NCBI RefSeq assembly: GCF_026151205.1
Contig: NC_087076.1
Span: forward strand, 19,215,919-19,275,918
DNA from: Bolinopsis microptera
Lineage: Eukaryota; Ctenophora; Tentaculata; Lobata; Bolinopsidae
Length of the DNA: 60,000 nt
Direction: 5' to 3'
Positions 13,701-44,700 of the stretch are shown here, in pieces (the stretch's first letter is position 1; every line of letters starts with the position of its first letter). The position numbers and the translations under genes were made by a program. Below the pieces are notes generated by a model, which did not search any database, had not been told where the DNA came from, and was given only the letters and a program-made list of their open reading frames with translations.

Positions 13701-14937
13701 TGACGTAGTAACGGATGAATGGCTGACTGAGGGTTGCACAACTATTCTAAATGAAGACAAAACCTGCATGTGCACCTGTACTCATACAACAAGCTTTGCA
13801 GTGTTGCTAAGTCCAACAGAAGTGACAGATCCAGCCCAGGATATCTTCAGCTACTTTATGTCTGCAGTAAACCTTATCTTCCTGTTCCTGACTCTTGGCC
13901 TGATTCTTCCGTTCAAGAAGCTGCGACAGAAGCAGGCCACTCTGATCCAACTCAATCTTATACTGGCTCTGATATTGGCTAACCTGTCCTTTACCTCCCT
14001 TTCTGCCTCTACCAAAATAACTGTGGACCAATCTGGGAACCCTCTATTGTCATTAAACAAAGGATGTGTTGCAGGTGTGATCATTACCCAATACTTCTTT
14101 CTGTCTGCTCTTTGTTGGATGGGATGCTGTGCTTGGAACTTCTTTGGAAAGATAGTTAATGCTATAAAGACCTTCGGAAATAAAGACAAGTTTTTCTTCC
14201 ACAAGTGTGTAGCTGTAAGTTGGTTACTACCACTGATATTTCCAGTTGCAGCCTTCTTGACGTCACTCACACTGAATAAGGATGACTACTCTACACCTTA
14301 TGTTGGGGCAACAAGAAAGAATGACACCAGCTGCTGGGTTGAAGATCCTTGGAGGTATGTTGGGTTCATGGTGCCTGCATACACAATTCTTCTCTTCAAC
14401 TGTGTCTGCTTTGGAATGATAGCTAGAGTAATTATCCGAGCAGCAAAGTCTGGAAGTGGAATTTCTAGTATAGAAAAAACAGCTAAAGCATTGATGATGG
14501 TTGCAGTCTCAATTGGGTGTCCTTGGATTGTGATTGCCCTTGCAGTTGGTCCTGGAGCTGTGTTCATGCAGTACTTGTTCATTCTTCTAACAGGACTACA
14601 AGGACCTCTCCTTTTTACTGCTTTGGTCGTGTTCCAAGAAGATGTCAAAGACAACACACTTGCTTTATTGGGAATAAAACAGTCTAAGAAAGAGGAGGGG
14701 AAAAAGAATGTCAGCATTACTCAGGCTTCTGTTGTCAATTCTAATGCTTATGCAAATTCTTCTCAAGGAGCTGAAGCAGCTGTTGCCGAGAAAAAAGATG
14801 GAAGAAAAGAGGAAGATATAATATATGAAGATGTCGAAGAATGTGAGATAGCAAGGATAGAGAAAGGATCTGACGAGATTGAATCGGAGGAGAAAGAAAA
14901 CCAGGATGATGGAAAAAACTCCCCAAATCTAGTATAA
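4669..14937 (+). CDS. Adhesion G-protein-coupled receptor gene, 8 coding exons
   Basis: Coding exons, all joined in phase 1: 4669-4735, 7614-8045, 8255-8701, 8970-9164, 10477-10908, 11027-11221, 12217-12417 and 12674-14937 (about 1,410 residues if all are used). Each has a consensus acceptor and donor, and each internal exon is 3n long, so any can be skipped without frameshift. Order: signal peptide, unnamed module A, module B, sushi-like domain, module C, second sushi-like domain, GCC2/GCC3 (ephrin-receptor-like) cysteine repeats, a long stalk with GAIN features, GPS, seven membrane helices, and a cytoplasmic tail rich in Glu/Asp. Family knowledge: such receptors sit at the plasma membrane, self-cleave at the GPS and signal by a tethered peptide. 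The ligand is unknown. Whether modules A, B and C occur in one transcript is inferred, not shown. Confidence 0.85.
5021..6140 (+). repeat. Direct repeats of about 135 bp flanking a hexamer array
   Basis: The segment 5,026-5,160 (starting AACCCAATCATCGTCTACTC) recurs almost unchanged at 6,003-6,140, on the far side of the (GGGAGA)n array. The segment before it (4,790-5,025) has a weakly protein-like frame with stops that I cannot identify. Confidence 0.85.
5204..5877 (+). repeat. (GGGAGA)n microsatellite, about 670 bp
   Basis: An uninterrupted perfect purine hexamer array of about 112 units. The plus strand is all purine and the minus strand all pyrimidine, so it could form triplex or other non-B DNA. 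Perfect arrays of this length are often mis-sized in assemblies. Confidence 0.98.
5878..6560 (+). repeat. AACGTT-rich repeat, about 200-270 bp period, three copies
   Basis: Copies begin at about 5,878, 6,143 and 6,345. Each contains CGTTGTACCAAATACGTTAC and the phrase TTTCCAACGTTGGTGATGC, and is studded with the palindrome AACGTT. 6,561-7,157 holds no gene that I can see. Confidence 0.85.
7228..7322 (+). repeat. 45-bp tandem duplication
   Basis: Two copies of a unit beginning CAGTAGATCGATTTTTTCAG. The second large duplication copy, at about 9,999, has only one. Confidence 0.9.
7614..8045 (+). CDS. Exon 2: unnamed extracellular module, copy A
   Basis: An in-phase 1-1 exon of 144 codons. Landmarks: [52 protein letters not shown], and a DTASDYYG ending, with conserved Cys in the GC, HCN and STC positions. 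It reads as a beta-rich secreted domain. I cannot attach a family name. I considered farnesoic-acid methyltransferase-like (Methyltransf_FA) and found no convincing match. Confidence 0.8.
8255..8701 (+). CDS. Exon 3: unnamed extracellular module, copy B
   Basis: Same module and same 1-1 phase, 149 codons. It keeps the [32 protein letters not shown] and DTASDYYR blocks but has diverged elsewhere, with a longer [12 protein letters not shown] stretch. It is missing from the second segmental copy. A repeated intron block, ACAACAGTCATAGTATGGTC, precedes modules A, B and C. Confidence 0.8.
8970..9164 (+). CDS. Exon 4: sushi/CCP-like domain, copy 1
   Basis: A 65-codon 1-1 exon with the CCP pattern: SC near the start, [14 protein letters not shown], then GSSEVTC, then a final PEC. 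The tryptophan usual near the end of a sushi domain is replaced by Phe ([12 protein letters not shown]). 9,165-10,476 is intron with no coding signal beyond the duplication. Confidence 0.7.
10477..10908 (+). CDS. Exon 5: unnamed extracellular module, copy C
   Basis: Almost identical to copy A at DNA and protein level, with only a handful of residue changes (for example RIART for RITRT, DYHG for DYYG). This places it in the recent segmental duplication. Phase 1-1, so its inclusion extends the ectodomain without frameshift. Confidence 0.8.
11027..11221 (+). CDS. Exon 6: sushi/CCP-like domain, copy 2
   Basis: Near-identical to the exon at 8,970-9,164 (for example GTVVEVNC becomes ETVVEVNC). Same phase. 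11,222-12,216 is intron; nothing else is seen in it. Confidence 0.7.
12217..12417 (+). CDS. Exon 7: GCC2/GCC3 (ephrin-receptor-like) cysteine repeat
   Basis: A 67-codon 1-1 exon with the [29 protein letters not shown] spacing of the GCC2/GCC3 or TNFR-like cysteine-rich family. The following exon starts with another such unit ([10 protein letters not shown]). Confidence 0.85.
12674..14937 (+). CDS. Exon 8: GAIN/GPS and 7TM region of adhesion GPCR
   Basis: A single 754-codon exon. It begins with the end of the cysteine repeat, then a hormone-receptor-like cysteine segment ([10 protein letters not shown] to GEC), a GAIN-like helical and beta stalk, and a GPS at about 13,690-13,812 with the W...GC...C.CTHTTSF pattern. 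The HTT tripeptide fits the His-X-Thr/Ser autoproteolysis site. Seven hydrophobic segments run from about 13,850 to 14,660, followed by a tail with acidic clusters ([11 protein letters not shown]). Intron-less GPS-7TM exons are common in invertebrate adhesion GPCRs. The stop is TAA at 14,935-14,937. Confidence 0.92.
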
Positions 14938-15291
14938 CTATGAACTAAGAAACCAGTAATAATCTAAAAGGAAATGGTTTGCTGGTAGGACAGTAAACTT
15001 CATAGCTTAAGTGTGGTGAGTGAATCAGACAATTTTCGTCTACAGCAGATTCTTAGAACTTATTATAAGTATTTATAATTATAGTTGGAGTAGCCCAAAA
15101 TCTGCCTCTGTTTTTAAGCCACTTGTAAAATGTAAAAGCAGTCTGTAGAGTGTAGACAATTATAGACATTGTGAAACATTTTTGGATTATTTAGTGCACA
15201 TATTAGCACATATTTTTGAACCCTGATATTGAACATGAAAATCAATTTATATTAAGAAAACATTAATATTAATGCATTACAGTTTGTATAG
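14938..15291. other. 3' flank of adhesion GPCR; no gene
   Basis: AT-rich sequence, presumably 3' UTR. No clear polyadenylation signal in a convincing context. Confidence 0.5.
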
Positions 15292-15698
15292 TTCTTTTAT
15301 TCAAATGTTTAATTGTTTCTGAATAGACTCAGTGAAGACAGATTCTAATGGAAATAAATAGCTGAATAACGCATCGACATTTCTACGTCATACTCATATT
15401 CTAAAATAGTATTAATTCAATTATAACGATCAATATGTACATACAAAATTTGACGACGGAATTTATTTCAAACAAAATATATAACTGTAAAATAGTTATC
15501 CACTGTAAAATAGTTTTTAACGAAATCAGAGCAAATATGAACATAAAAATGACAAAATTTTATCAAATAGGGCTCATCTGAAAATTAACGAATAGCGTGA
15601 CGTCAGACGTGTACAGGAGATAAAAGATTAAAAGAGATAAAAGAAATTAAGCGACAGCAGAGAAGTGAAATTTAAACGAAAATATTACTATTTACACG

Positions 15699-16080
15699 TC
15701 ACTCAACTAAAAACTGTGTTAGATTGTTCAACTCTGTTTTGTTGTTGAGTGTTGGTTTCTTTTCAACTAAAAATCGGGCTTCTTCAATCTTTCTGTTGAT
15801 GAGTGATGTTCCTCTGTCTACGATTTGAAGTTTTAGCTTTGGGGGGCCTTTGTGCTGAGGGTGACTTTCCCTGTAGTGCTTTGATAGTGGCTTATCTTCG
15901 TAAGATTTTGCTGTTGGGTTTGCTGCACTACGGTAATGCTCGTCGAACCTGCACTTGAGTGGTCTGTATGTTTCCCCACCATAGTTCTCGGTGCAATTGT
16001 CTACTTCGAAAGTGATGTGATAGACGGTGTTTGTTGTGGTGCATTCTCCATCGGTTAAATCTGCGCATGTTCTGCAGTGT
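15699..16080 (-). pseudogene. GIY-YIG endonuclease domain of Penelope-like element
   Basis: The frame reads a C-x2-C region (LHCRTC), then VYHITFEVDNC, YGGETYRPLKCRFDEHY and a KHYRESHP block. Allowing for the Penelope version, YHI and YGGET are the GIY-YIG core and R..EH the following catalytic region. It ends at TGA (15,699-15,701). Confidence 0.75.
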
Positions 16081-16449
16081 AGCCGTTGTTAATGAGAAGT
16101 TGATCTATCATCTTTTCGGAGTACTTCTCTTTTTCTCTGTTGTTAGAGACTGCCTCTGCGGTGTTGTACATACTCTCAACAGTAGCAGTTGCATTCTTTG
16201 TACGTGTTGTATGATGAGAGTTTCAGTTGTAGTGGAGGGTGAGTGGCTTTTTCTGTGGTTTTCTAATTCTATAGAGTCTAGAATGTATTATTCCATCTGA
16301 GTCGATCTTTATTTCCGTGTTGAGGAAGGGAACAAAGTTGTGCTGATTGTCAGGGTAGTCTACAGTTAGTTTGATAAGTTTGTCAGGGTCTTGTTGTTCG
16401 ATGAGATTGCAAAGTTGCTGAGCTTTTCGTCTGTTGGTGGTGGCTCCGT

Positions 16450-17215
16450 TTAGATCGTCGTAAACCTGCTGTAGGTGGGCAGTGTTATCCTCAGGTCAAC
16501 GCAGATGGAAAGTTTTTCCAGTTTCCACATCTTGACAGTAGCTAGTATAGGTGCAGGGTTGGTTCCCATGAACAATCCAAGAAGCTGTAGATAGACTTGA
16601 TTGTTGTAGACAAAATATGACTTTCCTAGGGTAGTACTAGTAGGGTTGTCTCTAGTAGTTCTTGTAAATCAGAGAGATGGAGACCGTATGTACTGATTGA
16701 CTGTCTATTTTCTTTAGCAAATTCCATGACATCTTCTATTGCTTGATGTTGGTGTATAAAGCTTCGACGTCTGCTGTGAAGAAAGTAAGACTCTTCAGAT
16801 CATTTGGTGTGTTTCTTTTAATCCTTTGAAGAAAATCGTGAATGTTTTTCAAATGTGAAGGTACTAGATTCATCAGAGGAGATAGAATGTGACAGACAAA
16901 GCAAAAGATTTTGTGAAAAGGGGAGTTGCAGCCTGAAACAATAGGTATAGTTTTCATTGTGTCAGGGTTAAGGGTCTTGATCTGCTCACTTGTGTACTTG
17001 TGGGTTTTAAGCATCACTCTTGCAGTAGCGAGGGTGGTGTGATAACTCATTAACAGGTTAGTGACATCTTGAGGAAGATTACGACTCTTGGCAATGTTCT
17101 TGAATGTTGACTTAACATCGTCTTCTAGAGTTTTAGTTAACTTGTGTATGTACTTTTGTTTGCCCAGTTTATCCTGTAGGTGTTGAAGACCTTCAAATTT
17201 CCGTCGCTGACAAAA
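16450..17215 (-). pseudogene. Penelope-like reverse transcriptase, broken
   Basis: The best open part is 16,736-17,050: MLKTHK, IPIVSGCNSP and a TADVEALYTNI catalytic box, the hallmark blocks of Penelope-like RTs. After a stop the frame resumes with GLFMGTNPAPILA, another Penelope block. The downstream YxDD region is not recognisable and further stops follow, so the copy is inactive. Confidence 0.85.
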
Positions 17216-20869: not shown

Positions 20870-23788
20870 ATGGCATCGGAAAGTGTGCTATCAAACGGTT
20901 TGAATGAAACTGAAACGATGGATGTCAGTGTTAAGGTTGATGAACCTTCAAAAAAGTATGTACTTGATTGTTTATTATTTGGAGATTAATTGGTAGATAT
21001 GGCCTATATAAGGCCACTATGCGGCCTCTTTACAGCCACTATACGGCTACTATACAGCCTCTATTATACGGCCACGATACAGTCACGATACGGCCACTGT
21101 ACAGTTACATTGAAAACAATCAACTCGTTTTATTGACTACTGAAATTTTAGGAAAAGACACAAGCATTATAGTTGCACACATGTACATTCAACTATCATA
21201 TCTGGAAAATCCTATCGAAATAACCACATTCATTCAGGGGGAAGGAGAAGTCTGGCAAGAAAAAGAAGGAAAAAAAGGAAGAAGAACCTCTTATTGGAAT
21301 CCTTGAATATGTAAGTAACTATAACTAATTATTCGTTAATGTTAGGGCCTTACCTTCCTTACCTGTGATTTCATATTTAAGGGGGCCGGGAGAAGGGTCT
21401 TCGTCAAAATTCACTCTGAAATTCACTTTGAAGTTGTTGCTGATAGAGGGGAGTGATAGCTGTTTTTGGTCCCATGGAAAAAATATTGTTCCTAGCATAG
21501 CCGAAATTATCGCTGGTCTAATGTCAGCGCTAATGTGTAATTGAATTGTGTGTCCTGGAAATCGAGTCTTAAAATCTATCTTCTCCTACATTTTTTTAGC
21601 AATCACCCTCAAACTTTCAGGATATGTTCTAGGCACCATTTAGAAGAGACCGCTCAGACAAAATTTTGAGATAGGCCCTTTTTTATTTAAATTTTTTGTT
21701 TAATTTGAAAATCTTGGACCTTAAAAAATCGTAAGAAAACGACGTCCAAGATTTTCAAAATTGAATACAAAAGGCCTAACTTAATCATGTAGAGGTTGCT
21801 GTTCAGCAAATTCCCGAATATTGAAAATTCACATCATGTATATTTCAGTATCGATATGCAACAGCAGTTGACTGGCTTTTGATTTTAACTGGATTCCTGT
21901 TTGCGATGTTCAAAGGCTTTTCCTGGCCTGGAATCATGATTATTTTTGGTAAGAATGTAATTTATTATTATTAATTAAATTATCTTTAAATAAATTAGGG
22001 TGTACCAGAAAATTCCCCAAATTGATTTATTGCTAACATCCCTCTAATTTTTATCTAAGTGAGCAACTTCCCTAAAAAAGCAGCTGTCTGTGGCCCCAAG
22101 TGTGCCTCAAGTAACCTTTTGCCCCAAGTGGTATACCCCAAGTGTGCCCCAAGTGTGCCTTGCTAGATTACCAAAGTTTAAAAATGTTTTTTTGATGAGT
22201 TACCACTCACATAATCTCGAAGTTTCATTTTCTAAACGTATATTGACCCACTTACGTTTCTCCAGGTGAAATGATTGAAAACTTAGGATCGAATTCTGAA
22301 GCTATGGAGAATGATCCAAATATTAATATACAAAAAGAAATGTTAACGTTCGCATTATGGTACATTGGCCTGGGCCTGTTCCAGGTATTGGCTGGATATG
22401 TCGCCACAGCATTTTTAAACATTTCTGCGGAGAGGCAAGCGTCCAGAGTGCGTAAAGCGTATTTCAGAGCAATGCTGAGACAAGAGGTGGGATGGTATGA
22501 TACGGTATCAAGTGGTGAACTTACTACAAGACTCCAGGGGTTGGCATGTTTTTATTATCTTTTAATCAGTTGTCATGGTAACTATCGTAGTTGTCATGGT
22601 AATCAGTGCAGTAGTTGTCGTTTTAACCAGTGTAGTTTTCATGGTAACCAGTCTAGTTTTCATGGTAACCAGTAATAAACGTTAATTCAGGGATATAGAG
22701 ATGATAAGAGACGGTCTGTCAGACAAATCAGGCCTATTTGTCACTTGGACCTTCTGTTTTTTAAGTGGTATTGCGATTGCTTTCTCCTACTCCTGGCGAC
22801 TATCCCTGGTTATAATGTCTGTCGCACCTATCATGGGTGTTCTTAGTGCTATTTTTGCTAAGGTACCATATTATTTTGCTACTGTTTATAATAATATTTA
22901 AATGTACGACAAAAGCTGAAAAGATGTTGAAAAATCTAACAAATATAAAAATGCACTTGCACTTTCTGTGAAATAGGATTTAAAAAAAGACAAAGATTTC
23001 AGTTTTAAAATTTCAAAACCTTGCAGTCTTAAATTAAAGTTGTTCCTCGACGTCTAGTCGCACCTGTTTTCATAACCAGCCATATTCTGAATTGTAAAAT
23101 CAATTATTTCTTATAATCGTTTAAATTTTCTTTATCATGATATTCTGTACTATTGGGGTTATTACTACCAGGTCCTGGCGGGTTTCACAGCAAAAGAGCA
23201 GACTGCTTACGCTGCAGCTGGGGCTGTTGCAGAGGAAGTTATCGGGGGTATTAGGACTGTGGTTGCTTTTGGGGGCGAGAAAACAGAGGTTCAGAGGTAA
23301 TTAGTGTAGTTGTCATGGTGACCTGTGTAGTTGTCATGGTAACCAGTGTAGTTGTCATGGTAACCTGTGTAGTTGTCATGGTAACCAGTGTAGTTATCAT
23401 GGTAACCTGTAACCTGTGTAGTTGTCATGTTATCAGAGGTAAGTAGAGGTTTCTTAACTCCAGATCTGAGAGCTAAAAATACATCATATAAATTGTAGAT
23501 TAGAGACCATAGCTATAGAATATATTGTGTCTTCGGTGGTAAACGATCATCTTAGGCATCACTAACTTGTTAAATCTAATCGTAGTTTGAACCTGAGAAA
23601 ATTGTATAAATATTCAATGACTGTCATACTATTTTAAAGTATTCAATCATAATATAATTGTAATGTTTCAGGTATAAGGGAAAGTTAGACACAACAGTGG
23701 AAACTGGAAAGAAAAACACACTAGTTTATGCCTTATCTCTTGCCTCAGTTAATGGTCTCATGTTTTTGATGTACGCACTGGCATTTTG
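20870..23788 (+). CDS. ABCB exons 1-7: N-terminus and most of TMD1
   Basis: Exon 1 starts with ATG at 20,870 after a spliced 5' UTR. Exon 2 is a Lys/Glu-rich stretch ending PLIGILEY. Exon 3 is TM1 ([15 protein letters not shown]). Exon 4 has the extracellular loop and TM2, then the RQEVGWYD and GELTTRL coupling-helix blocks typical of MDR proteins. Exon 5 has TM3-4, exon 6 the [19 protein letters not shown] helix, and exon 7 TM5 ([14 protein letters not shown]). Intron 3 contains a CCCCAAGTGTGC repeat at about 22,090-22,165. Confidence 0.9.
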
Positions 23789-29700: not shown

Positions 29701-32700
29701 TACATAACGAATATTTAATAGTAGTGTTATTTAATTAATAGCTTAATCAGATTAATATTTTCAACGATTGAGACGTTTGGGTTATTAATTGGTCGTGCTA
29801 CATGATATGTTCAGATTCCAGATGTACCAATCTTCTTGTCACCCCTGTAAATCTCAGAAAAATCACTCATAGTTAATAACCAGCTAACTCTCTGATCTCT
29901 CAACCTCAGATAATGAAGGATTTCAACTTAGTACTAGAGCCTGGCAAAACACACGCTCTCGTTGGTCAAAGCGGGTGTGGTAAAAGTACTGCTGTGGCTA
30001 TTCTGGAGAGATTCTACGATGTTACTGAGGGATCGGTTAGTTGTTACCAGTGTAGTTGTCATGGTATCCAGTGTAGTTGTCATGGTTATCAGTGTAGTTG
30101 TCATGGTAACCGATGTAGTTGTCATGGTAACCAGGGCCAGTTTAGTTGTCATGCTTCATGGTAACCAGTGTAGTTGTCATGGTAACTAGTGTAGTTGTCA
30201 TGGTAACCGGTGTAGTTGTCATGGTAACCAGTGTAGTTGTCATGGTAACCGGTGTAGTTGTCATGGTAACCAGTGTAGTTGTCATGGTAACCGGTGTAGT
30301 TGTCATGGTAACCAGTGTAGTTGTCATGGTAACCAGTGTAGTTGTCATGGTAACCATTAATTTAGTTGTCACAGTAAATACTCGTGTTGTCTGTTTCGAA
30401 CAATCTAACGAATACCTATGGCTATAATGGAATATACCAGCACACATATTTTAGGTTTTACTTGATGGAGTGGATATAAAAAAGCTGAATTTACATTGGT
30501 TAAGAGAACAGATCGGTTTAGTTGGACAGGAACCTGTGCTTTTCTCCACCTCTGTTGAGGTTAGGATATTTAATCACTAATTTCACTATTTAAACCTATA
30601 TTTAATCATTAATCTCGATACTTAAATATCATTGATCGATATAATTTGATGATTCTGTTTCGGTATAATTTTATTATTTACCGTTTTGAATTAAGTCATT
30701 GCTTTTACATTACATACTAACTTAAATTCAGTAAATTCAGTGAAAACTTTAATAATTTTAAAGTATAATATTCATTAATCAGGAAAATATCCGTTACGGA
30801 AGGGAAGGTGTTAGTAAGGAGGAGATAGTTGAAGCAGCTAAGAAAGCGTTCGCTCACGACTTTATAACCCAGCTTCCAGATGTGAGTTGTTGGATTATAG
30901 AGTTAATTAATGAGTCAATTAATGAGTTAATTAATGAGTTAATTAATGAGTTGATTAATGAGTTAATTAATGAGTTAATCAATGAGTTAATTAATTGAAG
31001 TGAGTTAATTAATGAGCTAATTAATTGCACGATGGGACCACTGGAAGCGCATTGCACTAGAGATTTTTCGCGCGCTGAGTGTTGCCAGGCAAATATTTCA
31101 TCATGATTCCCATTGGCTTCCAGCTCTATTTTTACTTGGCATATCATTAGTTCATGTTTCAGTTTTAAAGAGAATCCTTTGTTCTGCATCCCAGTATAAA
31201 TTTTATCAGTTAACTTTTTGATGAAGTTGACTATCAAATGTGCGTAAAGTAATCAGTTTTCGACAGACCACTGCAAGAGAACTTCATTTTTATCCTTCCC
31301 AGAAAACTGAGAATATATTGGAAATCATCTCAACTTTATGTGTGCAAATTTTCAGAATGGCTCGACAAGATGGTTTCGAGATAGAGATGATCAAACACGA
31401 TGTTTCTGTGTTATTTTAATACATTCGCGTGCAATTTTTAACGCCAATTGTAAGATGTAAGCATTGAACGCCAATTGTAAGCATTGAAAATATTAGAGAT
31501 TTGATAGAATAGTGCATTGTAACAGAATATAATAACACATAGTATTGGATAAAGTAGTTACCACAATAGCTCGATCATGAGATCAGTGGACTGTTTGGAT
31601 GCATTCAATGTCAGTAGTAAGCTGGGTGTGGGTTCGAAGCTCACCGGGGGTTGAAATCTTCGATTTCAAATCCCGGTGAGCTTCGAACCCACACCCAGCT
31701 TAATGTTTTTGCTTCATCCATTAAGTTTATAAATATAAGATATCATTGAGATAAACAAATTAGGTTATTAGTTAGATTAAAACACTACCACAAATATAAT
31801 ACTCCATCATTCACTTTATTACTGAGTACTGACACGTAATAAAGTTTACTATCAAATGTGCGTAAAGTAATCAGTTTTCGACAGACCACTGCAAAAGACC
31901 CTCATTATTAGCCCTCCCAGAAAAATGAGAATATATTGGAAATCATCTTAACTTTATGTGTGCAAATTTCCAGAATGGTATGACATGATGGTTTTGAGAT
32001 AGAGATGATCAAAGACGATGTTTCTGTGTTATTGTAATACATTCGCGTGCAATTTTGAACGCCAATCTTAACAATATAACAATTGAAAATGTTATCAGTT
32101 TGATCGAATAGTGCATTGTAGCACAATATAATAACACATAGTATCAAAATGACCAGTTACCACAATGGCTCGGTCATGACAGCAAAAGACTAATTCTACA
32201 TATTGAAACAAGCAATGAGTAAACTCAGTGTAGGTTCGAGTCTGGCCAGAGGTTGCATTCTGCGATTCCGAAAATTTCGTAGATATCAACCCCTGGCTAG
32301 ACTCGAACCCACATCCGTTCGAATGCTTTTGCTTTATCTATATTATTTATAAATATAAGGTAAATACAATATCTTATTGAGATAAACAAATAAAGTCAGT
32401 AGTTAGATTAATACACGAACACAGATATAATCATTGACATTATTACTAACACGTAATTTGCCATAACTCCGGATTGGAAATATGTTCCCAAGGCCCAATT
32501 ATTATCAAACCCCATCGATATTGAAAGACTGAAAATAATTCAAAACTACCACTACTTACTCTCATTCTGTTGAACAATCAGTAAAAAGAGTTTTGATGAT
32601 TAAATGTGAATCCTAATTCAGAAAATGGATTTCATGATGCGTTTGATATTGGGTACGCACTATGCGAACTAGGATTTGCTCCTTGATGAGCATTGTAGCG

Positions 32701-35700
32701 TTTCCCTTCAAAAAGCATCACTGGCCAGTGCGAAAAGCCTGATGGCTTTGGACCAATTCATTATATTATATTCGACCGACCATATTATATTCAAATTTAA
32801 CTCTGATCTAAACTGACAGTTCTTGCTTTTTCCACAATTCATAGATGTGGCACTCGCGCCTTCCGTGAAGTTGAGCAAAATTCTGAAATTTTACCAGGCA
32901 AACTGGACTTTTCCAACATTGTTGGAAGAGTTTCTAAAGATGATCAAGAAAGTTACTGAAACGATTCAGTCTATCCTACAGTATTTTAGGCCTCGTTTGC
33001 AAAATTTGAGCGCACAGAATTAAACCAAGTTCTGCTGTGTTGCGAGCAGCGATAGAAGGAAGTTTTCTCCAACAGTTGAAGAGCGAGGGGTAGTGTGAAC
33101 GAGTTCATCAGTTCATTCTTTTCTTTTGTGGCAGAATTAACTCCCTGTCAAAGATTAATAATGTGAAACGACTTTAAACATAACCTCAGTAAGTAGTGAG
33201 TTGCGATGTGTCAAAATTGTATGATATATATAATAACTTTCCGAATCACAATAAAACATTTTTCATCAGCAGGGGCAAATAATTTGGGATAGTAATTTCA
33301 ACTTACATCTGTTCTCGGAGAGATAATGTTATAGTCACACTCCTTATCAATGAACTCTTTTCTTGTGTAGCTGACTTGTTTTCCTAAAATTGCATGCTTG
33401 TTTTTTGACGGACAATAAAACCTTTAAAGTTTTTCTATAGAGTTTTAAGTCAGCAGCGAAGACTGCTATGGAAAGTATGGATAAGATGAATGAAATTTCG
33501 ATCAATTCATATCTTATTCATTAAGATTTTTCCGCTGTGTAAGTACAAGGCTTCAACGCCCTAGCATTTTTTAATATCATAGCCTCGTTAAAAATGAAGT
33601 ATTTATCACAAGGATTTCTTACTTGACTGAGTCTTTGTCTATAATTTTTGCATAAGAGCGGTGAGATTCATCGATATGACGTTTCTTCTGAAATTTATAT
33701 ATAATATTAAAGTCAAGTCGACGATAATCATTGGTGTTATTGATTGTTCCTAAATCAGCATATTTGGCCGTAGACAAAAACTAAAGTATAAAAGATCACA
33801 CGCATTAAATAAGATTCCATCCTTAAATCCTCCTATATGTAAATATTTCTTACATTTTTTGTCGTTGCAAAGAACGGTTTATTGATGGTGATGTCGCCCT
33901 GCAACCACATATGTTGAATACATTGCGTCAGGTTCTTTTCTAGGTTTCCTTGGAAACAACTGTGGTTGCGAAGGTTCCTTGCTTTCCCCTGTTTTGACTC
34001 CAGCGGTTCCTCACTATAGTTAGTGATTCCATAACCACCGTTGCGCTCAATCCACTCCCATGAATGAGCGAGAACCTGTGATGTTAAACTATTAGACAAA
34101 TGCAAAAGATGCAATAATGGAAAAAACTATTTCAATAACGATATCTCTGTTAAAATACAATACGATACGATATGCACAGGTACGGCATATTTCATTCATG
34201 TGGCATTTGACAATTCAGTGCCTACCAACACCCAAATCCCGATCATATAGATACAAAAATGTAACTAGTACTTATTACTCATTAACAGCTAGTGAAGTGT
34301 GAGTCAATAGCAAGTCGTTAGTTAGCTGATGACGAGTATATAATAAAACTAAAATATGTTAATCTTCTTCAATTGCCAAAGATTCGTGCTTTTCATAGGT
34401 TACCTGATTCTTCTATGATAACAGGTGGAGGAGTTGCTACACAATGGCGGGGGGTATCCTTACTGTTATCAGACATATCTGATCCTGGAAAATAATAAGT
34501 CAATAAATATGTTCGTCAAACCCTAAAGTGAGAATGAATGTAAAATTATGTCAACGCCTCGAACTGTAACTCACATAATATAAAATCCATTTTAAATGCT
34601 ATCTTTGAAACTATACGATAATTCGAATTCTAAAACTAATAGTGGCTGTAACATATGGGTTTATAACAAAATACTACACATTTGTTATCAACTATTTTAT
34701 GTGGTCGGATCTCAGTCAATATTATTAAGGTTCTTAAAACACACGAAACATGAAAAAAATAAAGAGCAATCGCAGTTTGCAAAATAACAAATAAATGTTC
34801 GTCACTATAATATTTTCTTTTCACTGTCGCTAAAAGTGCAAAGGAATTTCACTGCCAAATTACTTTGATATCCATGCCATACATTTGCAGTAAGTGTTAT
34901 GTATCAATTAATGGTATTAACTAATTCAGCAGCAGTCATATTTCGTAACCAATATCTCACAGTCAAACTAGATAGTATAGTTGAGCACTCACTTACCCAA
35001 AGGTGTGCTGATGTTGGATGGAGTTGTAGAGGATATCAGAGACATATCGGCTCCTGGAAAATAATAAGTTTTAAATAGATATATTCATCAAACCCCAAAG
35101 TGAGGAATGAATGTAACATTATGTCAACGTCTTGACTGTAATTTACATAATGTAAAATCCATTTAAAATACTATCTTTGAAATTATACGATAGTCGATAC
35201 GTTCGACTTCTAAAAATTTGACACATCTGAATAATATTAAAGATAACAGGACCTAGATTTTTCAAGTTTCAAATGAAATACCTTATACAGCCAGAGAACA
35301 ACAACAAATGAAACTCACAAATAATTAAAAGATAAAGGAGATATGTCAAATTTTCAAACAGAAGAATAATCTGTTTTAATGTACCAACCAGATGCAGATA
35401 TAAAGGGATCGAAATCCCTCTGTCCAATGCTTTCTATGCCATCGAAATCATCGTTACCCTCATCTGAATGTTAACTATTTCAATTTGTATTAGAATAGCC
35501 AGAATAATTACTCTATATATAGAACAAGAATTGCCCCGTTGTTTCGTTGTGGCGGACGCAAGATTTCCATTCATTTCAACCACAAGCTCTAACCACAAAT
35601 CAGCTCACTTCATGATATGAAAATTATGTTTTAAATAGGGAAACACTTTTAACTGATTCATTTCAATTGCAATGGAACTTAATTTTTATCTGTAATTTAA

Positions 35701-38700
35701 GAAATTGTAATCAAAAAGTGAACTATACTCATGTTTTATAATTGTATAAAACATGAGTATTGATTGCTATCATACATTTAATATAAATTGATGTTACCTT
35801 CACTTTCTGAGCTATCCTCAGGATCTTCTTGATCCATATAAGCTTGTAAAACAGCCCAATGAACTTTGTTAGCCCCATCAATACGAAGTCCCTGAAAGAG
35901 AATTCATTAAGCTTGGGAGGAAAAGTGTTAACTGACTCAAACTAAATTGTGCGAGACAGTTAAATTATGGATTATTTATGATTCATTTTTCTTTTAAAGC
36001 AATCAATAAATCATTTGCAGCACAATCAGCAAGAATTATCAGTCCAATGGTGCACACAGCAACTTAGTCAACAAGGCTAGGTTTGATGCTTTATCAAAGA
36101 TTTCGGAAATTGTACACCTCGAATCACTGAGCTGTTTCGCCAATAAACAATAGATGCTAAATTAAAGTACCAGTAAATCATGGTTTCCCTTTCTAATAGA
36201 ATGCTTATAGAAAATATGCCACCAAAAGATGATATAATGGAATGGCTCAAAACCATCCGGTCCTTTCAATCAGTTTTAGGTATAGTCAAGATTTAACAAC
36301 CTAGCGGCACAAAAATCGATAACAGCACATAGCTCATTAACTTTGATAAAATGCATGCACTCGCCACTCATGTGAATAGATTACTTCCTTGGTACTAAGT
36401 GGCTGTGAGTCTTTAATTCGGTACTTATAGGGTGTCCTTAACCCATATAATACCAACAACTCTAAACGTTCGAATTTTTTGGTGAAATTTTGTTTCCTAA
36501 GCACTGAGGTACCAACTCCGACGGTGCATTAATTATTTTGAAAAAATTTATATTTTTTATAGCTTTTTCGACCCGTACTTTTAAAAGTTCATTGTTGGAG
36601 CTTGCTTTTTTGGAACATTGCATCGTACTTTTAAAAGTACATCATATTTGAATGATGTACTTTTAAAAGTACGGGTTTAATAAATAATGTACTTTTAAAA
36701 GTACGGGTTTAATGAATAGTGTACTTCTTGAGATACGTTAGTTAATTAAACAGAAACTCAGGGTCAGATAATAAAACTAAAAGCCCTTGTCAGAATGGCT
36801 GAATAAAATTTAAACAATAAATACAAAATTTAAGTGGTACACTAAACAAATCATGATGGTGGGAACAGCTACATACTTATAAACTACTATCATAATTCCA
36901 TTTACCAATTTACTAGAATTTTACGAAAATTTTCAGGTTTTGTGCGTTTTACTCTAACTGATGATAAGGCTAAGGATAAACAAAGCACACAAAGTGCAAC
37001 GTCACACACTTCACACTTAGCCAGACGCTTTTCACAACTTAAAGAATACCGAAAATGGTGAGAATGAGAAGAGAGTAGCAGAAGCTGAGGGAGTTCTAGA
37101 GGAGCAGAAGAGAGTAGCAGAAGCTGAGCGAGTTCTAGAGGAGCAGGAGAAGGTAGCAGAAGCTGAGAGAGTTCTAGAGGAGCAGAAGAGAGTAGCAGAA
37201 GCTGAGAGAGTTCTAGAGGAGCAGAAGAAGGTAGCAGAAGCTGAGCGTATTCTAGAGGAACAGAAGAGAGTAGCAGAGGTGGAGGGAGTTCTAGAGGAAC
37301 AGACGAGAGTAGCAGAAGCTGAGAGAGTTCTAAAGGAACAGAAGAGAGTAGCAGAAGCTGAGAGAGTTCTAGAGGAGCAGGAGAAGGTAGCAGAAGCTGA
37401 GCTTATTCTAGAGGAACAGAAGAGAGTAGCAGAAGCTGAGAGAGTTCTAGAGGAACAGACGAGAGTAGCAGAAGCTGAGAGAGTTCTAGAGGAACAGAAG
37501 AGAGTAGCAGAAGCTGAGCGTATTCTAGAGGAGCAGAACTGCAGAAGAGAGTAGCAGAAGCTGAGCGTATTCTAGAGGAACAGAAGAGAGTAGCAGAAGC
37601 TGAGCGTATTCTAGAGGAGCAGAAGAGACTAGCAGAAGCTGAGATAGTTCTAGTGGAAAAGAAGAGAGTAGCAGAGGTGGAGAGAATTCTAGAGAAACAG
37701 ACGAGAGTATCAGAAGCTGAGAGAGTTCTAGAGGAGCAGAAGAGAGTAGCAGAAGCTGAGCGTATTCTAGAGGAACAGAAGAGAGTAGCAGAAGCTGAGA
37801 GAGTTCTAGAGGAACAGAAGAGAGTAGCAGAAGCTGAGCGTATTCTAGAGGAACAGAAGAGAGTAGCAGAAGCTGAGCGTATTCTAGAGGAACAGAAGAG
37901 AGTAGCAGAGGGGGAGAGAATTCTAGAGGAACAGACGAGAGTAGCAGAAGCTGAGAGAGTTCTAGAGGAGCAGAAGAGAGTAGCAGAAGCTGAGGGAGTT
38001 CTAGAGGAGCAGACGAGAGTAGCAGAAGCTGAGAGAGTTCTAGAGGAGCAGAAGAGAGTAGCAGAAGCTGAGCGTATTCTAGAGGAACAGAAGAGAGTAG
38101 CAGAGGTGGAGAGAATTCTAGAGGAACAGACGAGAGTAGCAGAAGCTGAGAGAGTTCTAGAGGAACAGAAGAGAGTAGCAGAAGCTGAGATAGTTCTAGA
38201 GGAACAGAAGAGAGTAGTAGAGGTGGAGAGAATTCTAGAGGAGCATAAGAGAGTAGCAGAAGCCGAGAGAGTTCTAGAGGAGCAGAAGAAGGTAGCAGAA
38301 GGTGAGCGTATTCTAGAGGAGCAGAAGAGAGTAGCAGAGGTGGAGAGAGTTCTAGAGGAGCAGAAGAGAGTAGCAGAAGCTGAGAGAGTTCTAGAAGAGC
38401 AGGAGAAGGTAGCAGAAGCTGAGGGGGGGGGGGGGGGGGGGGATCAGGTACCAAGTGCTGTACGTGACGTCGACTAAGTGCAACTTTGGAATTTACAAAA
38501 AAGACCCACCCACCCCCTTCGCGGTACTAACCGTTTTTTTCGGATAATATTTAGGACACCCACCCCTTTTGCGGTACTAACTGTTGAGAAATCACGGTAC
38601 TAACTGTGTTTTGGTATATAAAATAAGATACCCACCCATAAATTGCTTTAAACAGCTCATTAGACATTGGGAAATGGACAAAGTATACCTACTATTTAAT

Positions 38701-41700
38701 AGGGATTTTGTTTTCAATGCAGTCGAATTAAATAAAAAGTTGCAAAAAAAAGGAAACAAAATAAAAAAACCCAAAAAAAAGGAAAAAAACCTCAAAACTC
38801 AAATAAAATATAACCCACCCCCCGCATTAAGTAAGAGTATATTGAAGGCCGCTCTGGAAGACGTGGAATAACCGGGTGAAAACGTGGATCCTTCAAGATC
38901 GACTAAATCCCAGAAGTCACAACAGAAAGTTTCTGTTGTGACTTCCGTTCTGATTCAGAACAATTTACCTGCCATTACAGTCTTACCGACATTAATCAAT
39001 AATCATGCCAGCACACATTGTGTAGTCTATATAAACCTGTACTTTTAAAAGTACATTTTTCGTGAAACCTGTCCTTTTAAAAGTACATCATTCGAAGATA
39101 ATGCACTTTTAAAAGTACGTACTTTTAAAAGTACATCATTGTCTAGAATGATGTACTTTTAAAAGTACACCCAATTAACATCTCAATTAGAGGCAATTTA
39201 TGATTTTTATGTCGCCCCACATTATTGCCTATTTATTGCACAATCGTTTAGGCAATATTAAAAAACCAAATTTGGGATCCATCAAAGTTGGAGAATTGGC
39301 TGGTGGTACCGAGAATTTACCATTTTTCAAAGTACCATTTTTGACCACCTTTGCCAACATCCTATAAATTTCTTGCTTTTTTTAACCATCTGGCCAGGGT
39401 GTTAAAATCATCAGCATACCTTTTCTAACCTAATGCAAAAAACTGTATCAAAAAATATTTGTCATGAGACAAGTTAGGGCACTGTTTATGAACCGTACTT
39501 TTAAAAGTACCGTGGAAGAATATGTGAAAATCACTGCATTGAGAGAAATTATGTTATATGCAGTATGAAATATGCTTTGACTGATGGAATAGCGTGAGTT
39601 ATATCAGCAGTAATATACAAATACAAAGCAAGAATATTGGAGTGTTCTGACTTTTTTCTTTTATATACCGACCCTGCAGCTGGAAATAAAGTACGTTATA
39701 TATAATATATTCCTTAAAATTTGTATTCCTTATATATAGAATAATGTGACTGACATAAAATTAAATGTCAAATTTGGATAACAACAGAAATAAGAAATAA
39801 AATTGAACATTGCAATAGTTAGACATTTTCATTTTTTTGCAATTCTTGTAGTGAACAAGACCAATCCAAGTTTTAAAAATATAACAGATTGTTGTTTGAA
39901 AAGTATTAGGCATACCTTATTAAGTTCCAATAAAGATTTGTTTATGTCCATCTTCTCTATTTGATAGAATTAAGGCGCAGTTGACTTGTGACTCGTTGGA
40001 TAAAATGTATCAAAACGTATTGTTTATTGACGTAGAACCTTTAAAGCAAATAACTATAACCATATAATTATGTAAAAGAACAATTTCTAAATAAGAACTA
40101 GCGCTCGATTTCTAAGATTATATTTCAATGTATAATATTAAATTGTTATTGTGAGTTTTTGATCAAATATTCAATATTTTGTATTCAGATACTAATACAT
40201 TTTTGATCTTTCACTAATTCGCTTAAAAATGTGCCGCGCGCGCAAAATGATAATCTTGCAATAATAAATACATTATCAATGAAAGAACGTAAACGTAGCG
40301 CGCAAACGCAAGCGCGACTAGCAACGCCAAATGCAAAAGAAAATAGCGCGGCGCTATTCAACTCGGTCCCATCGTGAATTGAAGTGAGTTAATTAATTGA
40401 GTTAAACTAGGGTTTAACATTACGGGTATCGGCCTTACAAAATGACACGAAAAAGGAGATGGCTCTGAAATGCACAAAAAATGAGTTTTGTTCATGTTTT
40501 ATTATCCAGATAGGTAGTTCAACAGGTATATTTTTCTTCCCGGGGGTTGATTTGATTGAAAAACCGTAAATTTTGCGATAAAAATTGTCATCTTTGAAAT
40601 CTTCCAAAAAAACATGCCTTACAAAATGACAATTTCGTCACGGCTGTCATTTTTTAACAGCAGCCTATAGAAATTTGATTTCACCTAGGACAGTTAGATA
40701 AATATAATAGATTGAAGATTAGAATAGCTTTTACAGGAAAAAGGATGATTAAAAAAAGTTGGGCAATTTCGCGTGAGATAGTGCCTTACAAAATGACAAC
40801 CCAAAACGGCATCACTTCAAATCCGATTTGGGAAAAAGTTTCATTATTCTTTCACGTGTCTTACTGTTAGATATATATGTTGTTCATATTATACCAGTTC
40901 TGTTTTTACCAAAATATATTTAAAAAGGAACATTTTTTATACTTTGAAAAAATTTAAAAAATGTCATTTTGTGAGGCGTAAAAATAATTTTTCGTTTTCA
41001 TACTTGAACACAGTATTTGGTTATATTTGATATTTTCTATGACTGGATAGATCACTTTTCAGTGTTTAGTTAACGTTTGACATGTTTTAGGAGTTGTTAT
41101 TACTCTCTGCTTTCACAAAATAGAAGCTTTATTTCGTTGAGTTTTGAAATCAGAGTTTGAAATCAAAGAGTTTGAAATCAAAGTTTTGATATCAGAACTG
41201 CACTTTTTTAATGCTACTTGATTGTAAACTGTCAGATTATGATTATTTTTAACTCCTTCTTGTACTGACTGTCTCTGATCCATTTTAGATGATGAAAATA
41301 ATTCAATCTGAAACATTGTCATTTTGTAAGGCTTTTCGGTGTCATTTTGTGAGGCATTTTGATCAAAATTGATGATCAAACAAACACATTTAGGCTCATC
41401 ATCAGCTTACTGGGTTTAAGAATATCAATAATTAGGCAAGGGGCATCCAATATAAATATGCCATCTTTGTATCATAAAATAAAACTGTCATTTTGTGAGG
41501 CATAACACTGTCATTTTGTGAGGCTAGGTCATTTTTTTGTCATTTCTTCTACCAAAGTCACTAAATCAGTTTTTTTTATTTGACCAGAGTAGTCTTTGAT
41601 TGACATAAGTCATGGTAGTACCTGGTTTTCTGGGGTTAAATTCAAAACTTTGGTCTCCATTCTGGGTAACAGTTAGGCGGGGCAATGACTGAACAGCAAA

Positions 41701-44700
41701 AACGTCCATATTTATGTAAGAAATATAGATTCTATGTCATTATCATTCCTTGGGAAGTGTTAATTAATGCTTTTTCTTTCATACAGTAAAAGGAATAGGG
41801 TTCAATGTATAGAGAACCTAAGCTACAGCATGGTCTATGTGGGCTGTCATTTTGTGAGGCCTGTCATTTTGTAAGGCCGATACCCGTAGTTAGTATCAGG
41901 CAAATCTGTAAGATGTCAGTTAGCGTTATAACTCTTACATCCGAATGTGAGAGCTCAGAATATAATAGATTATTTTCGGTTAGAGACAAGAACTGGAGAA
42001 TACATGTCTTCGCTTGTTGTTAATTGTAGTACATATTTAAATTTCAACTCTATTTAAAAATCAGACGAAAGATCTGGTAACTTATCTAGTAACTGAGATC
42101 TGGTGACTGGTAACTGGTGTCTTGGTTAGCGGAAGCAGGTACCTAGTCAAGATTAATTGCCATGAACTTACAACTTGCATCTTAATTCTTGTAGATTTTG
42201 CATCTTTTGGACTTTCTGATCTGCCACACCAACAGATCTTTTGTACAATGTACTTTCATTACACTGTGATTCAAACTGTAAAGAATGAATTAGGTTGTAA
42301 GTTGCGTCCCCGCTGTTTTATCTGGCGTTCAAGAAAAAAATGGCTAAAAAAGATCAGTCGGAGAGAAAAATCAAATTTTCGCTGTGTGGACTTAATATTT
42401 TGAAAAAATCACTCTGCTTTAGACGGTATAGAGAGTGTTAGGTAACCAGCAGTTCCCCTACAATCCCCTACTATAGTCTATACCTAATTCCCCTACTATA
42501 CGTAATACCCTATAATTCTTGTCTAGAACATCAGCTGTAATCAATTACGTAATACAGTGTCTGCTCTAACTAATTAACCCTGCCTCAGAGAGGTGGTACC
42601 TTTAGTGTGTACTTAAGTTATGGGTTATATACACACTGTTTTACTGTGTAAAGACAACATAACGATCCTTATTCCGGTCTAGAGCTGCTGAGGATTGCAG
42701 TTCACATACACCTTATAATTTCTATTGAAGTTCATTATCATACCTTATCAATTAATTAGAGTGTATAGAAACAGGTGCCAGTAAAATGACATAGTTTACA
42801 CACTGTCAGTATACTGATTACTGCCATTTCGGGTATAATTCGTGGCACCTTCCCTAGTCCCTACCTCTTACTGCGGCGGTGTTTCTGTTAGGATCATACT
42901 CAGTGAAGTATATTATGCATTATTATAGCCTGTACATTTCAATCAAGGTTTTTATTTTAGTATAGTATGATACGTTCATTTTAGTGTGATAAGAATTTTA
43001 GTATTTTTAGTAGGGTAAGTTGAGCGTATAATTTAGTAGGGTAAGTTGAGCGTATAACTTAGTAGGGTAAGTTGAGCGTATAATTTACTTAATAACTTTG
43101 TTGTGTGGAAACCCTGCACTCTGGGAACGTCTATAATTCATGAATAAATTGCTAGTAAATTACAGGTTAATAATCATTATATTATTATTTAAATAAGCTT
43201 CACATGGCACTGACTCGCAGATTATACTCGCTTATATACGGAGTATAATTGACAGTTCTAAACCAGAGATTAATGACGAGCTGCACACCGCATAACTCTC
43301 TGATCTTCAGTATAAAATGCAGTGTAATAACTACTGTCTAGTGTGTACGCGTGCGGCACGTACACGGCACGTACGGCACGTACACGCCACGTACACGCCA
43401 CGTACAAGACACGTTCACGGAACGTACAAGACATGTACGGCACGTACCGTTTACACACTATCATGTGTATAACTGTGTACTGTGTAGCTGTGAGCTTGTT
43501 ACCATGATTATTTCAATCCGTACAAACCACTTTAACTCTTTAACGACTGTATTCAGCTCGTGTGGTCTCTACTCTCTCTCTCTCTCTCTCTCTCTTGTCA
43601 AAACTATTTGAAAATTAGCTCAAGTAAGTTAAGATCCGGATATATGCACTATTTACACTGCTCATTGTACAATGTACAATGTACAGTGTACACACACTAA
43701 GATTGCTTCCAGGAGAGAGCCGCGCTTTACTGAGAGATCCATATCCTTGTTTTGCCATGATATTTGGAGGAATAATCGTCCGTTAACCATTTTATTCGGA
43801 AATGTGGCAAAATCTTTATAAAAATTTGCGTCCATTGAAGTGCAGACAAAAGTTGTCATGAAAAGTCAGAACCTTGCCAAAGGTCTACAGACTCCATCCA
43901 GTGTTTTACAGGGAGACAGATGCTCTTGAACAATTTAAATTACTGTACGTGACCGTAATTGTGTACGTGACCATAATTGTGGACCAAATATATTATCACA
44001 GTGGACCACTTATAGTTAAATCCAGTCTGGGTAAGTTCCATAATGTACATTAACTTCAAGTATTTATACCATAATTATGCTTGTGTAATGTGAAATTGCA
44101 CCGGTATAGAAATGAGGCAGTTTTATTGTTCGTAAGTTAATTTAGGTTACAACTGAGTAACAGAGTTGTACCAGCTTACCAGGAATCAGGGAAGATGTAG
44201 GTGACAAAGAGAAAGAGAGAGAGAGAGTAATGATTATTGTCTTACTTCCCTATAATATCATGTATAGTGTAAATGTGTTTTAACTTTATATAGGCCCCTG
44301 TACTGAAATGAGAGTTGTTAATAACAGAATAGTGAATCAAAATATTAAAGAATTGGTGTAATTAGCGGTAATTTGTAGTGCCCATTTTACCTGACAACAC
44401 TAAAATATACCTGTAACTAATTCTTAACAGGGCTACGATACGTTATGTGGCGAGAGAGGGAGTCAGATGTCAGGAGGGCAAAAGCAGCGCATAGCCATTG
44501 CACGTGCACTAGTGCGCGACCCTAAGATTCTCCTTCTTGATGAGGCGACCAGTGCTCTCGATAACAAATCGGAGAAAATAGTGCAACAGGCACTAGATAA
44601 GGTGGGGAAAGTTTATAACACTGCAAAAAAAATGGGTTAAGATTTAACTTATATATTGTCGTGAAATTAATTTGGATTCAAGATTTAATGCAACAGAAAT

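Follow-up and report, generated by a model that had tools for sequence, protein, structure and literature searches.

A probable RAG1/Transib-superfamily transposon with a predicted multi-exon transposase gene in the ctenophore Bolinopsis microptera

An exon of 80 residues (e8) in the window, the 60,000-nucleotide stretch of Bolinopsis microptera DNA analyzed here, very probably codes for the catalytic C-terminus of a RAG1/Transib-superfamily DDE transposase, within a cut-and-paste transposon with CAC-type ends and 5-bp duplications. This assignment is based on profile matches, on the ends of the element, and on the exact 5-bp duplications that flank it. The copy in the window is a deletion derivative. 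The RAG1/Transib family is already known; the branch described here is unusually divergent within it. The features are listed in Table 1.

Table 1. Positions in the window of the transposon, its parts, and the neighboring host exons.
Feature	Position	Strand	Remarks
Whole transposon, 9,349 bp	31028..40376	(-)	Minus-strand gene; 3' end at 31028; ends matched
Left target site duplication AATTG	31023..31027	(.)	Inside GAGTTAATTAAT minisatellite; similar sequence resumes beyond the other end
Right target site duplication AATTG	40377..40381	(.)	Same five bases as left; minisatellite-like surroundings
3' terminal region	31028..31127	(+)	Starts CACGATGGGACCACTGGAAGC
5' terminal region	40277..40376	(-)	Starts CACGATGGGACCGAGTTG; 12 bp in common with the 3' end, then different
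e8, catalytic C-terminal exon	33833..34075	(-)	Carries the H of LAH and the E of PLES
Candidate exon after e8	33623..33687	(-)	Needs a GTAAGA donor within the e8 end (33853 down); no CCHC motif; low confidence
Deletion junction	34262..34344	(.)	About 6.4 kb of the C3 copy (exons e1-e7) absent here
Candidate upstream exon	34404..34484	(-)	In-phase join to C3 e1; splice sites by eye; low confidence
Candidate upstream exon	34998..35053	(-)	Low confidence
Candidate upstream exon	35389..35463	(-)	Low confidence
Candidate upstream exon	35798..35891	(-)	Low confidence
ABC transporter exon, Walker A part of first nucleotide-binding domain	29880..30161	(+)	Pfam ABC_tran profile 2-45, E 1.5e-9
ABC transporter exon, same domain (signature and Walker B part), beyond the transposon	44428..44637	(+)	ABC_tran profile 99-137, E 1.4e-12

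On the minus strand, a frame of 97 aa stays open across 33833-34126, and LAH, IERNG, SEEPLES, and HMWL are all read there in the order given by the original prediction, which had been made from this DNA alone. The exon starts with GTTCTCGCTCAT at 34075, directly after the acceptor TTAACATCACAG. A splice acceptor had also been noted, and it is supported by another copy of the element, on C3, in which the upstream exon ends in ...IIPTLHT and is joined in frame to VLAHSWEW. The joined sequence reproduces the LHxxLxH spacing seen in relatives. The predicted extent, 33833..34091, is therefore right for the exon but wrong at its end, since the exon stops at 34075 and the bases up to 34091 take in intron. 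When e8 is aligned to the zebrafish RAG1 segment, the local score is 51, a value reached by none of 300 shuffles (maximum 45). The scores against the HzTransib and BbRAG1L segments are 45 and 47, values reached by two and by one of 300 shuffles, respectively. Five relatives chosen from the 41 found (P0001, P0010, P0018, P0025, and P0039) give scores of 90-125, with 0/300 shuffles in each case and z values of 13.9-22.9. Alone, e8 has a sole Pfam match at E<=10, to PF12940 RAG1 (profile 562-625, E 0.1, below the cut-off), and no match to solved structures; its nearly identical C3 copy has no Pfam match.

Profiles built with the neighboring exons place the protein in the superfamily. Joined exons e6-e8 of C3 (210 aa) have one match among solved structures at E<=10, HzTransib (PDB 6pqn; E 1.6e-9), which we take to be the Transib transposase of Helicoverpa zea. 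With a two-sequence profile that includes the C13 relative, all 12 structure matches are to Transib, RAG1L, or RAG1 (E 4.2e-9 for HzTransib, 0.022 for BbRAG1L, and 0.4-1.4 for vertebrate RAG1), and an unrelated DDE family, named in the original prediction as the alternative, gives no such match in Pfam or among the structures. The predicted homology to the RAG1 C-terminus thus holds at the level of the superfamily, but Transib rather than RAG1 is the nearest match. By hhalign, the C-terminal part matches 12 relatives at 99.5% (E 3.9e-23), its catalytic Glu falling opposite theirs, and the N-terminal part containing the first Asp gives 88% profile against profile (E 2.9e-6). On these comparisons, e8 and the catalytic end of RAG1/Transib transposases are homologous.

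The remainder of the gene can be predicted from the forward C3 copy, where exons e1 to e8 have plausible splice sites and where e4-e5 and e6-e7-e8 join in frame. Among the catalytic exons, only e8 is retained in the window. By alignment, the first catalytic Asp (DGMDGAGNQ) lies in e5, while LHxxLAH and the catalytic Glu lie in e7-e8. The second Asp (TMLDGKM) and the CxxC (YCNSC) are in exon TMLDGKMRSIVSGRGGAYCNSC, which the C3 element carries on its minus strand, opposite to e1-e5. In alignment with the relatives this middle exon falls where it should, and a genome search with it returns its own C3 place as a close match and two distant ones at 39% and 34%; alone, it matches no RAG1 or Transib among the structures. 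The three acidic residues, the CxxC, and the two His are all present by alignment, spread over two strands in C3. The predicted gene comprises at least eight exons. When joined to e1-e3, the candidate upstream exons match only DUF7829 in Pfam, at a sub-threshold E of 0.035.

The original prediction had put the exon inside a transposon, and both ends of this transposon can be read. At 31028 the left end starts with CACGATGGG, just where the homology of three copies stops; in Blast, the homology of the window to two C3 loci runs from 31026 inwards. The window and the two C3 copies all start with CACGATGGGACCACTGGAAGCGC, and the bases outside differ. The second end, CACGATGGGACC on the minus strand (40376-40365), has the same first twelve bases in inverted orientation, and past the first 12-14 bp the two ends are asymmetric. 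By count CACGATGGGACC is not rare, with two occurrences at up to two mismatches in the window against 1.69 expected, and these two are taken as ends because both are exact, inverted, and flanked by an identical AATTG. Inside the element, window positions 34261 and 34345 align to c3 17134 and 10742, so that the stretch c3 10742-17134 is missing and with it e1-e7. Consequently the window copy cannot make a transposase. The transposon also contains a 39-bp minisatellite of about 35 copies (37067-38423), long stretches of which are open.

A search of the 264.65-Mb B. microptera assembly yields six matches to e8. The window and C3 versions are 97.5% identical, with three silent and three replacement changes. 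Their immediate surroundings are 95-99% identical, falling to 88-92% further out, although this neighborhood is not certainly noncoding since two candidate exons lie inside it. As the flanks are equally similar, there is no sign of selection on e8. Purifying selection had seemed plausible from protein identity and was dropped because the neighboring sequence is just as similar.

The C3 element spans 21050391-21067768 (L008 2392 to L007 9769), or 17,378 bp, with GGCTG on both flanks, and joining these flanks at the duplication gives an open frame across the junction. That target frame (L008 2280-2391 and L007 9770-9998) was taken by eye for immunoglobulin-like, but nothing significant was found in Pfam or among the structures. 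The left arm of the C3 element is an inverted repeat of its right end, with 2,392 bases at 99.96% and the outer 0.9 kb at 92.6%. With these palindromic arms the element has a 3' end at either side and catalytic exons in both orientations, which means that it is rearranged. Its 5' exon region (L008 8112-10000 and L007 1-742) is tandemly duplicated, the longer pairs being about 91-92% identical. Further elements with both ends are found on C11 (7,818 bp, AAACG), C10 (7,791 bp, AGGGG), and C13 (7,723 bp, GATCA). The duplication on C13 is offset by two extra bases at the left end, and exact 5-bp duplications thus flank four of the five elements for which both ends are available (window, C3, C11, and C10).

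At the scale of the genome, a query with the 3' end (window 31026-31225) has 26 matches and one with two hundred bases of the 5' end has 19. Nine of the 26 loci hold the 3' end forward, and the outside bases differ in all nine. For pairing, 18 of the 26 three-prime matches were used (eight short or split ones being excluded) along with 15 of the 19 five-prime matches (four at 78-79% being excluded). Fourteen of each pair up in the right orientation, 6.8 to 32.7 kb apart; two of the four unpaired three-prime ends are the C3 element's own two ends, and one five-prime end is left over. In their main aligned blocks the C10, C11, and C13 copies (7.7-7.8 kb) share 97.5-98.8% identity, comparisons with C13 including one end block at 92% that is mostly gaps. 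This high identity points to fairly recent movement.

The coding part has a low copy number. In ten loci and the window, e2-e8 were searched for, and no match was found in the stretches searched of the 7.7-7.8-kb copies on C10, C11, and C13. The C12 copy has fragments of e4-e5 only within the 5 kb examined, and coding pieces are scattered on C12, C13, C11, and other C3 sites. The original prediction had proposed a hunt for full-length relatives in the same genome; relatives are there, as the e8 matches show, and the assembly yielded no copy with an intact single gene. Ends are tied to transposase sequence at only two elements, those of the window and C3, and CACGATGGG is absent from the 10 kb examined at the coding relatives on C13 and C10.

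While the ends, the duplications, and the frame across the empty site can be read directly, we infer the mechanism of transposition (paired ends, DDE cleavage, and a 5-bp stagger) from the superfamily. A transposase dimer would bind the CACGATGGGACC ends. These would then be cut by a DDE active site of the RNase H type, presumably via the nick-hairpin cleavage known for RAG and its kin. Insertion would take place with a 5-bp stagger, as read from the duplications. Like the 7.7-7.8-kb copies, the window copy could move only if the enzyme were supplied in trans.

The transposon sits in an intron, between exons encoding a single ABC-transporter nucleotide-binding domain. Since ABC_tran matches are found on both sides, the predicted location in an ABC transporter intron is confirmed. 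Two smaller putative exons of the transporter, at 30455 and 30762, were placed by eye and Pfam gave no confirmation of them. Beside the transporter's coding exons there is a 21-bp repeat, ACCAGTGTAGTTGTCATGGTA, at window 30046-30356, 22568-22676, and 23296-23432.

When the joined 455-aa sequence was searched against 5.8 billion proteins, 7,950 candidates were scored, only one of which, P0018, reaches E<=10 (1.2e-6). Because this search requires shared five-letter words and a similar length, the absence of window-family proteins from it is weak evidence. P0018 is in PF26100, the Pfam family that also holds relatives of a 571-aa ORF on C2 (L011 4884-6599, minus strand). That ORF matches Pfam RAG1 (2.7e-13), HzTransib (1.3e-18), BbRAG1L (1.9e-16), and RAG1 (from 6.5e-10), and 43 pieces of the genome, its own locus among them, match it. 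No convincing ends surround it within the 10 kb examined, its best CAC-pair score being 13 where 20 mononucleotide shuffles span 11-15. It was rejected as the source of the ends, as there is no CACGATGGG there within 10 kb; CACGATGGG is absent in all nine loci checked (L009-L014, L016, L017, and L022). Its neighbor is an oxidoreductase-like frame (quinone reductase type, by eye; L006 201-1220, minus strand). The C10 relative is a distant multi-exon RAG1/Transib-like gene (L010 3097-6866, minus strand) with GFDGASSH, MVDGKSRKAMMGRGGAYCYHC, and SEEGIEYMQ. Near the C13 relative, a pogo/CENP-B-like transposase frame was seen by eye (L009 1235-1690, minus strand).

Two trees bear on the position of the window family in the superfamily, both built from short alignments (221 and 248 columns) with RAG1 represented by two sequences, and in which long branches may mislead. 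The window family and the C10 relative form a clade at 99%. In the first tree, which used 13 of the 18 database proteins then known, this clade joins RAG1/RAG1L at 84%. In the second, from which P0003, P0005, P0006, and P0007 were left out and to which seven of 23 new proteins were added, the clade falls weakly among a Subgroup-I-like set, and the grouping with RAG1/RAG1L is gone. The AU test rejects none of the placements, whether with RAG1 (p 0.546), Subgroup I (0.509), or Transib II (0.26).

A fast-evolving branch of the ctenophore “Subgroup I” Transibs is a reading to which we give not quite an even chance. Six Transib-like proteins have been found in ctenophores, with Mnemiopsis and Pleurobrachia in the figure, and in Subgroup I Transibs, which lie closer to RAG1L, the ends are asymmetric (Tao et al., 2022, PMC9435367). 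Since such proteins have already been published, the window element alone does not change the known host range of the family. The window element shares the asymmetry of the ends, and the larger tree, though weakly, places its family among the Subgroup-I-like set. The profile match to the relatives (E 3.9e-23) agrees with this, as do the close e8 relatives P0010, P0018, and P0025, which have the PF26100 domain and a CCHC tail and are provisionally taken for Subgroup I. The C2 ORF and P0001, a Bolinopsis microptera protein by its NCBI name, also look like Subgroup I. However, a CCHC-type tail ends most of the aligned relatives that reach the C-terminus, and this tail, taken here for the type I C-terminal tail of Subgroup I, is absent from e8 and from two candidate following exons. 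The recovered exons do not reach the alpha11-alpha12 region of the zinc-binding domain, another trait by which Subgroup I is defined. The gene is predicted to be multi-exon, and the AU test shows no preference for this placement. Moreover, the residue three positions after the catalytic Glu is Gln in all three members of the clade but Asn in Transib, RAG1, and most relatives, though P0013 (His) and P0039 (Met) also deviate.

These same traits would be the marks of a separate third lineage retained in ctenophores, outside RAG1L and the known Transib subgroups and made up of the window family and the C10 relative: Glu-x-x-Gln in place of Glu-x-x-Asn, a multi-exon gene, and the loss of the C-terminal zinc tail. 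We regard this reading as possible but rather doubtful. Wherever the branch belongs, what appears to be new here is a lineage in which the gene is predicted to be multi-exon, Gln stands at Glu+3, and a CCHC tail has yet to be detected.

The original prediction went further and pointed to a RAG-like transposon, which in the present case would have lost its RAG2L gene or had it missed. Martin et al. (2020, PMC7204232) describe RAGL transposons as carrying RAG1L and RAG2L, in bilaterians and some cnidarians. Such an origin would fit the first tree, the AU value of 0.546, and the sea urchin, whose RAG1L and RAG2L genes are multi-exon (PMC8355894). Yet the grouping with RAG1 vanished when taxa were added, Transib is the better structure match, and a RAG2/kelch match is found in none of 10 ORFs, out of 25 overlapping the window element, which is a weak test. 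This reading is thus improbable, and the window element does not demonstrate a RAG1-RAG2 pair in ctenophores.

Still less probable is that domestication of such a transposase gave rise to a host gene, of which e8 would be an exon. The predicted introns, the low copy number of the coding part, and the C13 and C10 relatives, which have no such ends within the 10 kb examined, would all suit a host gene. Against this, at two loci the coding part lies within elements that have ends and target duplications, e8 has no excess of conservation, and the window copy lacks e1-e7; nothing in the sequence suggests that the e8 of the window serves the host. Finally, chance or an unrelated DDE family, which the weak Pfam signal of e8 alone and its want of a structure match could suggest, is refuted by the profile comparison with neighboring exons and contradicted by the shuffle scores, the middle exon, and the transposon's anatomy, so that hardly any weight is left for it.

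Ctenophores are possibly sister to all other animals, and for this reason the diversity of their RAG1/Transib transposons bears on the early diversification of RAG1's ancestors. To this diversity, the RAG1/Transib-superfamily transposon of the window adds a divergent and apparently multi-exon lineage that, from the similarity of its copies, was fairly recently mobile. With defined ends and target duplications, it could be tested in a transposition assay. Judged by titles and abstract openings in a library that lacks most subscription papers, the literature on ctenophores or Mnemiopsis with RAG1 or Transib does not describe the window family, nor does that on B. microptera transposable elements.

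Among known systems, HzTransib is the best structure match and has a C-terminal core with LHxxLxH-like and SEExxE motifs, CAC ends, and 5-bp duplications. It differs in having Asn at Glu+3 (Gln here) and SRK after the Glu (CFQG here), and, in contrast to it, the window family has a gene of eight or more predicted exons. The Subgroup I ctenophore Transibs (MleTransib_3931 and PbaTransib_8175), compared by description and not by sequence, have the phylum, a RAG1-like core, and asymmetric ends in common with the window family, in which no CCHC tail is seen. ProtoRAG RAG1L of amphioxus (PDB 6b40) shares the core region, the CAC ends, and the 5-bp duplications, the latter two being common to Transib and RAGL elements (Martin et al., 2020, PMC7204232), but it is a weaker match (E 0.022), and its RAG2L partner has no counterpart seen here. 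Vertebrate RAG1 has the same motif order and spacing, with a sub-threshold match to the Pfam RAG1 profile (554-625) and E values of only 0.4-1.4 among the structures; it is a domesticated single-exon gene, whereas the window family is carried by a transposon.
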